From contig JAHLKC010000040.1 of NCBI GenBank assembly GCA_025449115.1, positions 62,001 through 126,000 on the forward strand: DNA of 64,000 nt, given 5' to 3'. Under the pieces are notes generated by a model. It did no database searches, was not told where the DNA came from, and saw only the letters and a list, made by a program, of their open reading frames with translations. The position numbers were made by a program, and so were the translations under genes. This document shows positions 31,098 through 36,102 of the stretch, one piece after another (the stretch's first letter is position 1; the number at the start of each line of letters is the position of its first letter). Origin of the DNA: Chytridium lagenaria. Lineage: Eukaryota; Chytridiomycota; Chytridiomycetes; Chytridiales; Chytridiaceae.

Positions 31098-32617
31098 TTG
31101 GACAACAAAGCTGTTACTACCTCTTGCTCTGCTATGCGTTTGGCAATAGGATGTCACTCGGAGATCATTCTTGGGAGCGATGACTACAACATCAATGTCT
31201 ACGATCGTGATCTCGTCGTACTGCATCCCATCACCAGCGACATTATCAAACAACATAACATTTATCATCGGGCGAATGCGCATACCAAGGAGACAAAGGA
31301 GGTGAGATTGTAGCTATCACTTTGAGTTCAGACCACCTTACCCTTATGTTTGTGGGGTCTTTTGGAAGCAAGGGTTGAGTTTTGTTTAAAATCCATGGGA
31401 CAATTCACGTAAAGAAGCTAACAATACATTATTCCTTTATTACTCACCAGAACGTTCTCGTCTATGTCACTCCATGGAACAATCACGGTATATATATAAT
31501 TTTATCTTTTCATTCTCTTATGGAACCGGCCCGCAGGCTACGACGTTGCAAAAATGTTTCGTGGCAAGTTCACCCACATCAGCCCTGTTTGGTACACCAT
31601 CAAACCCGTCTCTGCAGTGGCGTACGAGCTGACCGGCTCGCATGATGTGGACAAGGGATGGATTGAAGATGTGACTCAACCCACTGACGAATTGACACCC
31701 AAAATCGTACCTCGATTCCAGCTTTCAGAAATCGCGAGGGACCATATTGTAGAGTTGGTGAAGGAAACAAGGATGCGATATCCAGCATATGCGATTTGAT
31801 TCTAAGAGAATGCATGTAAGCGCTTAAATTATATAATATCACCAATCTAATCAATGTTTTTAGCAACCAAAACTTTGACGGGTTCGTCCTCGAGTTCCAT
31901 TTATCTGGTTACACTCCTACATTGATTGAGACGCTTTCGATTCGTGCAAAGGCTGCACAGCTCCAATTTTTCCTCGTCATTTTCCCTCAACGGCCGGATC
32001 AACAACAAACCGTTTTCGATCGCTCCCATTTCGACCTATACAAAGATCTCGTGGACGGATTCTCTTTAATGACTTATGACTTTTCAAATTCCCAAAAGTG
32101 AGTCCCCATCCCTTTTACTTCACCAGTGCGCGTTTGAATAGGAATTAACGTTACTACTTTATGTTTCTATTCTCAGCCCTGGCCCTAACGCCCCCCTTTC
32201 CTGGATCGAAGAAAACATACTCACCCTCTGCCCCGACTTTGAGGACCGTCCTAAACTCCTCGGGGTCTCAACATGTACGGCAACGATTTCACGCTCCCCA
32301 ACGGCGGTGGTCCCATTGTAGGAAGGCGGTACATTGATTTATTGCAAAAGCACGCCCCCAAGTTGGAGTATGTCGAGTCAGCGTCTGAACACAAATTTAC
32401 GTACATTGAGAAGGGTGAGAAGCATGAAGTGTGGTATCCGTCGTTGAAGAGTCTGGATGAACGGTTGCTGGCTATTGAGGAGCTGGGGACGGGGATTTCG
32501 GTGTGGGAGATTGGACAGGGGTTGGATTTTTTTGTAAGTTTTTCTTCTTTTTTTTTTAATTGATTCGATTCTTTATATGCTAAGTTGCTAATATTGTTGC
32601 AGTACGACCTTTTTTAA
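31098..32617 (+). CDS. Chitinase-domain-containing protein 1 (CHID1)-like, GH18 fold
   Basis: CHID1/SI-CLP proteins are GH18-fold, secreted or lysosomal saccharide-binding proteins, usually without the full chitinase motif. Exons: up to 31301 (NIYHRANAHTKETKE), 31451.. (NVLVYVTPWNNHG), then YDVAKMFRGKFTHISPVWYT, ELTGSHDVDKGWIEDV, IVPRFQL; next FDGFVLEFHLSGYTPT, DLVDGFSLMTYDFSNSQ; then PGPNAPLSWIEENILTL, LNMYGNDF, IVGRRYIDLLQ, VWYPSLKSLDERL, GISVWEIGQGLDFF and a last exon YDLF with stop at 32617. Blocks and order match animal CHID1. In the strand-4 motif the sequence is FDGFVLEF, so the DxxDxDxE acid chain is incomplete, as in the family. One indel precedes LNMYG (GGGG at about 32262). The N-terminus and signal peptide are not resolved. 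Confidence 0.85.
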
Positions 32618-33193
32618 AAGCGTTGGTCTGATTCTACGATATGTATCAAACAAAACCTGGCACTTTTTCTCGGGGTACTTCTGCGTAATGTCTCATGTTA
32701 TTGTCACGTCCAAACCTACCATTCTTGTACTTTGAATTAGGAATTGTGCTTTTATATTATTTTATCATCCGTTGTTTTCTTTCATGGGCAATAAAGATGA
32801 TCAGCTCTCACACCAAAATACCTCAAGTGATAGATTACGGTATGCTACCAGCTCAAGCTAACGCATCCTTCTGATCTCCATATTCATGATCTTGCTCCAA
32901 AGGCCAGGCTGAAGCACTAGTTTTTACCTAGGAATTAATAGATTACTTCCCATCTGTTGAGGTTTTCAGTTGGTTTGTCGTGTAGTGCGCAATGTTTTGG
33001 AAAACGTTCCTCGGTCGCACTGGAACCACCTCGTTAGCAAAGGGACTGTTCGTGATCATTGGATGACCTTCATGCCTCTAATGGGATTCATTCAAAGCAA
33101 GTTTCAAACATATACAGCAGACATCACTCCTGGTCCTGTCAATCAAGAGTAACAAAGTCGTACTGCCGCCGTCGTATAAACGAATTAGATAAA
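32618..33193. other. Spacer between CHID1-like gene and Fanzor gene
   Basis: No convincing coding frame. It should contain the Fanzor promoter or a missing 5' exon, and the left end of any mobile element. No terminal inverted repeat was found by eye. Confidence 0.4.
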
Positions 33194-35279
33194 ATGAATT
33201 CTCTCACAAGCTCAAGGAAATCAGCCATCGCCGGAAGAATGGAATCAGCAATTAATTCCAGGAAGAGACCAAACACTATTGATTTTGGGACCCCTTGTCT
33301 TTGATTTAAGGACACTGCTGATCCTTGAAATTAGTAATATCCAAGAAGAAATATCGAAAGGTTCTTTTGCGCCGCCTCGCTACTATGACCCTCGTGGGTT
33401 CCGTCAGTTCAGTATGATGCCTATCCCACAAGTCAAACCAAAGTACATGCCGATAAGTACTGAAACACTTGCTCTCATATTGGAGGCCGACTCTAATTTA
33501 CCAAAAGAGTTGAGGCATGTAAAAGTAAGTCGTTTAAATTACTGATTACAATTATAGTATTTTACTACTGCATTATACTAACAACCTTTAAATTGGTTTT
33601 TTGACACAGAAACCAGGATCGTCCAACGTGGACAAGTGGCAACTATGGAATCTTGTTTTTCGATTCCCACATCGTCATGGGGTTGACGGCGAGCTGCAAT
33701 TTCCACCGTTACCTGACCTCGCAAAGGAGGTGAAGGATTATAAATGCTACTTTGGCTTTCGACTCACCACGGACGGTTATGGAGCCTCTTGGACATTAAA
33801 CGAAAAAGAGTTAAAGGTGCAGACATAAATATTCGCGAGTGTGAACTGGACAAGGCTGATAGCCTCACGAGCGACAAGAAGATTGTATTGGATCCTAAAC
33901 AAGTCGTCGCCTTTTTCGACCCTGGTGTAACTGATCCACTTAATGGATTCTTACGCGTGCCATTTAATGCGATACCCGAAAGAACTAAAGAAAAGGGCAG
34001 CAAGGGTGCTATCAAGAGGAGAAAGAGAAAGAAGAGGAAAAGGGTAAAGGAGAGTGAGGCGATATTGGTAGATGAAGCTGAGAGCCTTCAGTGGAGGGAA
34101 AGGAATTGATGACGGATATGAAGAAGAAGCAAAAGTCAAAGAAGAGGGATCAGTTAAAGAAGTCAGAAAAGTCAAAGAAGATGAAAAAGACAAAGAAGAA
34201 AAGGCGAGGGGGAAACGAAGAAAACGTCGTTGCCGTAAGAAACCACCTTCTACAATGCAGCCGCCATCGATAAAGAACCCTCATGCCAAAGGAGAAAGAG
34301 GGGACCCAGAGTGGGGGTGGGGGGAAATCCCTGACGACTTGAAGAGCCACATTGTAGTTATCTAAGATCCCATATTACCAGCCGCGAATGGCACAACGAG
34401 GCTGGCCACGGCGTTCATAGGCCTGTTAGCGAGGAGGTAATACCCAGACAGTTAAGTGATATCTATATACGACTGACTTTGGGTTTTAAATCTTTCATGT
34501 TTTTGCTATAAACAGGTGAAGACGGTGCGAGAAAATATCCCGTCAAAGACCTCATCCGTTGATGATTTATGCAGTTCGTGGAATACACATCATACTTTTA
34601 TGAGGTAAGACTTTCAATGTAAATAACAACTTAATAATTATGTTTTAAGGTATTATATCGTCACAAATATCGGGAGCGAGATCAACGATTTCGCAAGTAC
34701 GTGAAGGAACAGAAGGCATTGGATAAGCTGATAAAAAAGCTTTGCCACGGTAAGAAGATGTCTTGTTAGTTCTGTTTTTTCTTAAACATTACAATAGGAT
34801 ACAAGGATGTCGTCATCGTGGTCGGCTCAGGAGCTTCATTCTTTTCGAACCCTAATGTTTCCAAGAACATCAGAGGGAAGCAAAAGGGGCCGATGAAGAA
34901 ACTGCTGAGAGCAATGGTGCGAAAGAAGGGGTGGGTGAAGAAGGTCTTGATGCAAAAGGAGCCCTATACTTCATCCGTCTGCCCTTGCGAATTGAAGTTG
35001 TAAGTAGAATCATTTATTATTATAATTGCTGCTCTGTACCAACCGACTCCAAATTATAACAGAGGGAACCTGGAAAAGGTTCGAGGTCAAGGAGGACCAC
35101 AAGGCTCCCCTATCCACTCTGTGTTGAGCTGCAAAAGCTGCTTCACATTATGGAATCGGGATGTTCTTGGTGCCCTCAACATTATGCGATGTTGCATTAT
35201 GGTCGCAATGGGCCATGATTACCCCTTGCATAAGAGCCTTCCCATGCACCGGAAAGACGACGAACCCTTAATCACGTAG
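33194..35279 (+). CDS. Fanzor1 (eukaryotic TnpB-like RuvC nuclease), multi-exon
   Basis: Fanzors are eukaryotic relatives of IS200/605 TnpB and Cas12; characterised ones are omega-RNA-guided DNA nucleases. N-terminal start uncertain (MNSLTSSRKS at 33194, then a frame change by 33290). Ordered family signatures: RGFRQFSMMPIPQVKPKYMP (33400s), splice 33525..33609, KWQLWNLVFRF, TTDGYGASWTL, RuvC-I VVAFFDPGVTDPLNGFL (33900s), a Lys/Glu-rich insert (34000-34240), SREWHNEAGH, exon 34516..34604, LYRHKYRERDQRFRKYVKEQ, KDVVIVVGSGASFF, then KEPYTSSVCPC, intron, NLEKVRGQGG, CKSC, and RuvC-III LWNRDVLGALNIM. Putative catalytic acids (D of DPG, E of KEPYTS, D of NRD) are kept. The first zinc knuckle is CPC instead of CxxC. 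Indels at about 33290, 33818, 34100, 34365 and 34604. Stop TAG 35279. At least five host-like introns. Confidence 0.88.
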
Positions 35280-35340
35280 AGTGTCGCCCTCACCAGATGA
35301 TGGGCGAGAAAGCTTTCGTGGGCCATGAAAATGGCATAAT
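35280..35340 (+). ncRNA. Candidate omega-RNA scaffold 3' of Fanzor
   Basis: Directly after the stop codon: stem TCGCCC (35284-35289) with GGGCGA (35302-35307), a palindrome GAAAGCTTTC (35308-35317), and stem GCCAT (35322-35326) closed by a GAAA tetraloop onto ATGGC (35331-35335). TnpB and Fanzor guide RNAs are encoded at or just past the nuclease 3' end, so position and structure fit. This is an inference from hairpins only; no family alignment was possible. Confidence 0.4.
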
Positions 35341-36102
35341 ATTTAATATTTATTTAGTAGCCTGTTGGATTTCTATTTATTATTAGTGCTGTTGCCGAGA
35401 CCAATAGAGCACCCTTTGATTAGCCAGAAGCAGAATCGGAATAGGTCGCTGGATTTATGACAGAATATTCTGCGATTCCATTTGTATGTTTTTTTTAGGC
35501 TGAATATACAAGCAAGGGGTTTAAGATCAAGTCAGAGCACCAAGCCCAAAGGTATATACCAACAAGGAATGGGATAAATACAAGGGCAGGTTTTTTCTCT
35601 TGATGAAGAGAGGCAGTGGGATATCACTAAGGCTTGATACTTTTTTAATTATCAACATAATATATGCTGGTAATACAAGAGTGTGCACAGAATGTTTGAA
35701 AATGGGTAAAAGCCTATATTAGGTAAAGTACGCGCAGCACTCTATCTATTCTATATGGGTATATACCTATGGATAATATGAATAATATGAATAATAATAG
35801 CTATGGAGGTATATACCAAAGCACAGATGAGGTTGTGTTCCTTGTCCTTTGCACCTTTTCAATCTGAATTAAATCTGTATCACCTTCACATCTCCAAGCC
35901 TCAAATCATTAATAATAATAAGAGATTAATAATTAATTAATCTAATTCTTTTATTAATTAGAAACCAGATTTCACACCTCACACCCCTCCCTCTCTCTCT
36001 CTCTCTCTACTCTCTCCAGTTTATTCAACTTTGCTCACCATCAAATCACTCTAATCCTCCATTCGCGTATTCTCTGTAAGGAATATCCTCATACTACACA
36101 TA
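35341..36102. other. AT-rich region downstream of Fanzor with GGTATATACC palindromes and a CT microsatellite
   Basis: The 10-bp perfect palindrome GGTATATACC occurs at 35551-35560, 35758-35767 and 35808-35817; the last two flank an AATATGAATAATATGAATAA patch. A (CT)n run lies at 35983-36008. These may mark the right side of the element that brought in the Fanzor, or be plain low complexity. Confidence 0.55.

Follow-up and report, generated by a model that had tools for sequence, protein, structure and literature searches.

The window analysed here is a stretch of 64,000 nucleotides of Chytridium lagenaria DNA (C40:62001-126000), and the genome searched comprises 41.9 Mb in 356 contigs. On the plus strand of the window lies a 5'-truncated, frame-broken copy of Fanzor1, a eukaryotic cousin of the CRISPR nucleases. 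The copy belongs to a repeat family, hereafter lineage A, and was probably inserted by way of RNA. The features of the locus are as follows.

About 32941..35338, + strand: 5'-truncated Fanzor1 copy of lineage A, probably a retrocopy (similarity to another copy, C25, from 32934-32941; common 3' end)
32961..33152, + strand: coding remnant (..DHWMTFMPLMGFIQSKF..) upstream of the start given by the first-pass annotation, homologous to residues 180-224 of the protein P0001
33318..33524, + strand: exon piece with RYYDPRGFR and KPKYMPI
33525..33609, + strand: intron 1 (GTAAGT..CAG), GT-AG
33610..34436, + strand: exon piece with broken frame, carrying TDG, DPG, a Lys/Arg-rich insertion and SREWHNEAGH
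34437..34515, + strand: intron 2, GT-AG
34605..34649, + strand: intron 3, GT-AG
34750..34797, + strand: intron 4, GT-AG
34798..34999, + strand: exon carrying VVIVVGSG and, ahead of CPC, the shifted Glu (codon 34959)
35000..35062, + strand: intron 5, GT-AG
35063..35279, + strand: last exon with NLEKVR, CKSC, WNRD (Asp codon 35160) and the stop
35272..35338, + strand: 3' end with two neighbouring hairpins and the terminus GGGCCATGAAAATGGCATA, common to 16 close copies

The first-pass annotation had described a Fanzor1 gene with a series of ordered motifs. These motifs were found on the plus strand in the order given, spread over exons with five short GT-AG introns between them, and the stop lies at 35277-35279 as proposed. 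The start at 33194, in contrast, had been placed too far downstream: coding sequence homologous to paralogs is present already from about 32941, and the element extends from about 32941 to 35338.

The assignment to Fanzor1 was borne out. According to excerpts of PMC10711439, DPG and a shifted Glu are the fingerprints of Fanzor proteins, and TDG is that of Fanzor1. TDG, the motif of the Fanzor1 WED domain, lies within TTDGYGAS at 33769 and is also present in the paralog C117. The first RuvC acid is found within FFDPGV (Asp codon 33918). The shifted Glu is followed by six residues and then Cys (E-PYTSSV-C), and it is kept in both of the other lineages aligned. The finger pattern, TSSVCPC..CKSC..NRD, contains [TS][TS]xx, four Cys and then RD, the first Cys pair being CxC and not CxxC. 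Between the first Asp and [TS][TS] lie about 293 residues, calculated as the genomic distance minus introns, a figure that is only rough because the reading frame is broken there; it exceeds the range of D-x(125,275)-[TS][TS] given for Fanzor1 in the accessible part of the published description. The over-long stretch contains the Lys/Arg-rich insertion. Judged from its translated motifs (TDG, DPG, shifted Glu, four Cys and last Asp), the window copy is of the Fanzor1 type. SpuFz1 of Spizellomyces punctatus and GtFz1 of Guillardia theta have the same TDG, DPG, shifted Glu, finger and motif order. The last acid is Asp in the window copy and SpuFz1, but Asn in GtFz1. The Asp-Glu spacer is about 290 residues in the window copy versus 158 in SpuFz1, the latter value being derived from the residue numbers in the available portion of the SpuFz1 report. 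Truncation and frame breaks set the window copy apart from SpuFz1 and GtFz1.

The joined peptide was compared with Fanzor/TnpB profiles, the check that the first-pass annotation had recommended. The exons joined across the frame breaks pass Pfam PF07282 (E 3.9e-6, 27.4 bits versus a cut-off of 26.3), whereas the NCBIfam match, guided_TnpB (E 1.5e-5, 24.4 bits), is far below its curated cut-off of 100. When the exons were scanned one by one, no family scored above cut-off (best 16.9 bits), and the window copy was not among the matches listed in a six-frame genome search with PF07282. A profile built from three Fanzor lineages of the genome was compared with the PDB and matched the Guillardia theta Fanzor1 (9cer) with E 0.016 over profile positions 61-380; five ryanodine receptor chains that outranked it matched 44 positions near the finger and were set aside as chance. 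With a two-lineage profile, GtFz1 was the top PDB row (E 0.057), matching in weak pieces with TDG, DPG and ExxTSxxC..WNR in order. PDB searches with single sequences gave none or irrelevant matches, and when the joined peptide was searched against proteins, none of 6449 candidates reached E 0.001. The sole match in a protein search with an alignment was P0001. In viral contigs, 17 stretches fitted the pattern, of which none was confirmed. The structure of P0001 predicted from one sequence was unusable (mean pLDDT 33.1).

Other Fanzor-like sequences are present in the genome. C117 (L029/L089) is a lone, longer Fanzor1 paralog, the gene model of which ends ahead of the second and third RuvC acids; these lie downstream in the DNA. 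Its only protein match is P0001 (BC829DRAFT_421071) of Chytridium lagenaria, a chytrid, in agreement with the zoosporic-fungus host that had been suspected from the window. L001 (C7:75004-78144) and L002 (C86:75610-78750), which are 96% alike, form a third TnpB/Fanzor-like lineage. This lineage scored above the PF07282 cut-off in the genome search, and the open frame in C86 has 385 codons. The stretch C168:65209-65574 matches the N-terminal part of Fanzor with 38% identity and was absent from the other searches.

The view that the locus is a gene, "not an obvious dead copy", was not supported: it is one of the copies of a repeat family, lacks its 5' part and has a broken frame. Similarity between C25 and the window copy begins at 32934-32941. 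Upstream of this point the coding frame of C25 runs on (..ETSRDYFPSVEVVQLVCRVVRNVLENV..), matching P0001 from residue 70. Because the window copy begins partway through a coding exon, the upstream remainder of which is present in C25, it lacks the N-terminal part. Position 32934 was rejected as a true 5' end common with C25, which reads on upstream in frame, and position 32966 was rejected as an intron acceptor, C25 coding straight through it. The Asp, Glu and Asp that had been reported as kept are indeed readable, but the protein is missing its N-terminal part.

Frame breaks occur in three regions of the window copy, one near 33300, another near 33826 and a third between 34107 and 34380. Some of these breaks may be assembly errors, because the adjoining GH18-like gene also appears split. 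The frames of this chitinase-family gene (window 31500-32600) appear broken, which hints at assembly indels; a GH18 match in one piece of it is under cut-off. The split neighbour and the readable catalytic residues would agree with a working Fanzor1 gene at the locus, the frame breaks of which are assembly errors. The truncation, however, cannot be accounted for by indel error, and the start within an exon that C25 continues rules out an intact gene here. In addition, the differences between the window copy and 12 other copies amount to 51/20/22 at codon positions 1/2/3, a count in which differences common to several copies are counted repeatedly; no third-position excess is present. A working gene is thus hardly credible. 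C25 likewise contains in-frame stops, and no full-length open copy was seen among the lineage A copies read.

The genome contains 16 close lineage A copies, the window copy and 15 further ones, and an additional fragment at 68% (C11). The 16 copies have a common 3' point 59 nt past the stop, and their 5' ends vary, from 32934 to 35161 in window numbers, with C25 extending further. The shortest copy is 174 bp. The terminus GGGCCATGAAAATGGCATA was found with at most one mismatch in 14 of them; nine further places in the genome with 2-3 mismatches are unrelated. C50 and C113 terminate in ATGGCATA, and their hairpin carries a deletion. C265 is cut off by a contig end, internal deletions are found in C7:21110 and C224, and the middle part of the copy at C7:227162-228535 (L009, L058) is inverted, with a gap adjoining. 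Whole introns were kept in 10 of 10 cases, in six copies, among 12 lineage A copies examined besides that of the window. Breakpoints fall inside introns in C1, C50 and C224. Introns 2-5 are retained in C25 and C265, in which 219 and 222 of 235 bases, respectively, were aligned. Copies of spliced mRNA are ruled out by the kept introns, and a cut-and-paste element by the varying 5' ends and by the sole inverted pair in 32920-35350, which is internal.

Lineage B shows 37-49% amino-acid identity to lineage A in two exons. Nineteen of its 21 DNA matches reach query base 617-636 of 636, their starts being spread from query base 1 to 579, and the shortest match is 55 bp. The 25-nt end of lineage B occurs at 7 places in the genome, every one inside a lineage B match. 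Two copies, C35 and C2 (L036, L033), have a common 5' start and similar 3' parts, unlike the other copies.

The final 67 bases of the window copy fold as two neighbouring hairpins. In 15 copies, 98.0% of 344 cells pair, compared with 35.0-52.8% when the structure is slid. Covariation is thin, with one pair altered on both sides, and the covariation score was reached by 36 of 500 shuffles. The 3' end of lineage B also forms hairpins, of different sequence. Four matches to known RNA families at the 3' end were all under the gathering scores. By comparison with known Fanzors, the 3' hairpins may represent a guide RNA scaffold.

The hairpin 3' ends of both lineages would suit one-ended rolling-circle transposition of the Helitron2 type, in which copying starts from the 3' hairpin end and an early stop gives 5'-truncated, intron-keeping DNA copies. 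There are 30 Helitron_like_N matches in the genome. In the available sections of PMC3627910, the paper on topic in the literature on Fanzor, target-site duplication and truncation, Bao and Jurka (2013) ascribe 5'-truncated Chlamydomonas Fanzor1 copies to such transposition. These elements, CRe-1, CRe-2 and CRe-3, are likewise 5'-truncated with intact 3' ends, introns and variable duplications (7-19 bp), and they were read as Helitron2, with Helitron-shared ends and T-rich sites. The junctions of the Chytridium copies bear on this reading.

Target-site duplications were examined in both lineages. When 14 lineage A copies were compared with mismatched pairs, one clear case was obtained (C7:415773), C50 stood at 1.6%, and most copies were at control level. 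For 13 lineage A and 2 lineage B copies together, the duplication sum was 93.5 versus 69.5 (sd 5.0) in 20,000 permutations (p 0.0002), and p was 0.001 without C162; most lineage A copies, that of the window included, were again at control level. The candidate duplication of the window copy, TTAATA, is not significant. The signal was stronger in nine lineage B copies, with a sum of 73 versus 37.8 (sd 6.1), which none of 50,000 permutations equalled. Duplications of at least 8 bases were present in 5 of these nine copies versus 2 of 72 mismatched pairs: C162 (14 bp), L090 (13-14), L092 (13), L093 (8) and L095 (8). The other four, L091, L094, L096 and C4, had no clear duplication. L100, which belongs to a subfamily with a different 3' end, has a duplication of 12 bp; by eye, L097, L098, L099, L101 and L102, which stood outside the nine-copy permutation test, have none.

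The 5' duplication reads G|ACA in L090, L092, L095, L100 and C162, that is, in five of the six clear cases; that of L093 does not open in this way. G|ACA was also observed at the lineage A copy C75b. The last bases of the element, ATACA, overlap the ACA that opens the duplication. In C162 and L092, and only in these among the copies read, exactly GGGTTAGGGTTA lies between the duplication and the element. Across the genome, VNGGGTTAGGGTTA matches 72 places, true telomere starts included, versus 7 for the backwards-read pattern. GGGTTAGGGTTA, far commoner than this control, also occurs well inside contigs and may mark insertions generally in this genome. Six other telomere-motif places among L103-L108, all picked for AA before the repeat, were read. 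At one of these, L106, the motif precedes an RT-like fragment: the sequence continues as a stretch with 75.5% identity to L080 across 98 bp, inside an RVT_1 match. Its translation reads as Gypsy-like.

These junctions weigh on the Helitron2 reading. According to the consulted parts of PMC4778049, Helitrons leave no target-site duplications, whereas duplications are present here. The caveat is that the CRe copies filed as Helitron2 have duplications too, according to the sections of PMC3627910 cited above. The same parts of PMC4778049 state that the left end of Helraiser is essential and the right end dispensable, which fits poorly with Fanzor copies that have no left end. The ACA overlap and the telomere repeats find no ready place in rolling-circle transposition. 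A genome-wide search with the 19- and 25-nt Fanzor ends, allowing up to 3 mismatches and thus revealing only near matches, gave no Helitron-linked match. Unlike the CRe elements, lineage B has G|ACA sites and two 5' junctions with telomere repeats, and no shared end was found in that search. We consider the Helitron2 origin unlikely.

The pattern fits target-primed reverse transcription: the 3' end is fixed, the 5' side is truncated, duplications and an overlap of terminal bases are present, and two 5' junctions carry telomere repeats. We therefore infer an RNA intermediate and regard it as probable that unspliced Fanzor RNA was copied in this manner. The template would be an unspliced Fanzor1 transcript ending just past the two-hairpin 3' end. 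For lineage B, the primer would come from a nick at G|ACA; ending in TGT, it could pair with the last bases (ACA) of the RNA. Reverse transcription would halt early, leaving the 5' side truncated, and the upstream side would be closed afterwards, at times with two telomere repeats. The target site would end up duplicated. Several points count against RNA-mediated insertion: the Fanzor copies have no poly(A) tail, a clear duplication is missing from several of them, that of L093 departs from G|ACA, Helitrons are present in the genome, and kept introns are unusual for RNA-mediated copying.

Break repair could also bring telomere repeats to such junctions, by capture of RNA or DNA and healing of ends by telomerase with no dedicated element. 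In mammals, according to excerpts of PMC2246262, repeats are added to breaks by telomerase, sometimes accompanied by duplications, and telomerase RNA can be retrotranscribed; here, another telomere-motif place adjoins a different fragment. The fixed 3' end and the common G|ACA site argue instead for a recognised template and target, and we judge break repair very unlikely.

In the proposed target-primed reverse transcription, the enzyme would have been borrowed from another element. The genome search listed 150 RVT_1 matches. LINEs usually show 5' truncation, variable duplications and a short overlap at the 3' junction, and some RVT_1 matches are, from a reading of their lengths, LINE-like. 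Retrotransposition in trans by a LINE is therefore a rival reading. The kept introns, however, are a feature described as special to Penelope-like elements in the part of PMC3846280 available, and a LINE source is in our view somewhat unlikely. A Penelope-like element acting in trans would be the foremost candidate, although we assign this kind of enzyme tentatively, as possible rather than probable. It is favoured because that part of PMC3846280 describes how Penelope-like elements disperse intron-containing genes in trans and how, in the endonuclease-lacking kind, telomere repeats are added where the 5' end is truncated. The copies of bdelloid rotifers reported there contain introns and have duplications and telomere repeats at truncated 5' ends, as here. 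The moved rotifer gene sits between Penelope terminal repeats, whereas none turned up in Chytridium, for which a Penelope-like enzyme is putative, and the genome-wide search with the 19- and 25-nt ends gave no RT element sharing them. The literature searched, mostly outside subscription journals, contained nothing linking Fanzor and Penelope and nothing on Penelope-like elements in Chytridiomycota; Fanzor and chytrid occurred together only in PMC10432273. The words Chytridium, telomer, Penelope and target-primed do not occur in PMC3627910.

The short copies can be compared with the ghost guide-RNA loci of Spizellomyces punctatus, which, in the portions of the reports available, have a scaffold without a protein gene, comparable to the copies of 55-250 bp here. 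Inverted repeats flank the ghost loci at either side, the window copy has none at its ends, and the Chytridium copies, unlike ghost loci, have only the 3' end in common. The same portions state that no transposase was found between the repeats of Spizellomyces Fanzor elements. A wider hypothesis, quite unlikely when taken as a whole, is that Fanzor1 forms a guide-RNA system here that spreads by retrotransposition. Its transcripts would be copied from the scaffold end by a Penelope-like reverse transcriptase, the copies of 55-250 bp would become protein-less scaffold loci reading new guides from their flanks, retrotransposition would build a guide repertoire, and the Helitron-ascribed Chlamydomonas cases would represent the same process. 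Breaks for insertion might even come from the nuclease itself.

Our results suggest that the copies of lineages A and B were dispersed via RNA, a reverse transcriptase having been borrowed for this purpose. Such insertion marks in a fungal Fanzor1 would offer a testable answer to the question of how such a gene moves without a transposase of its own, namely with the reverse transcriptase of another element. The Helitron reading of the Chlamydomonas copies deserves a second look, and the present findings suggest a possible origin of guide-scaffold loci without a protein gene.
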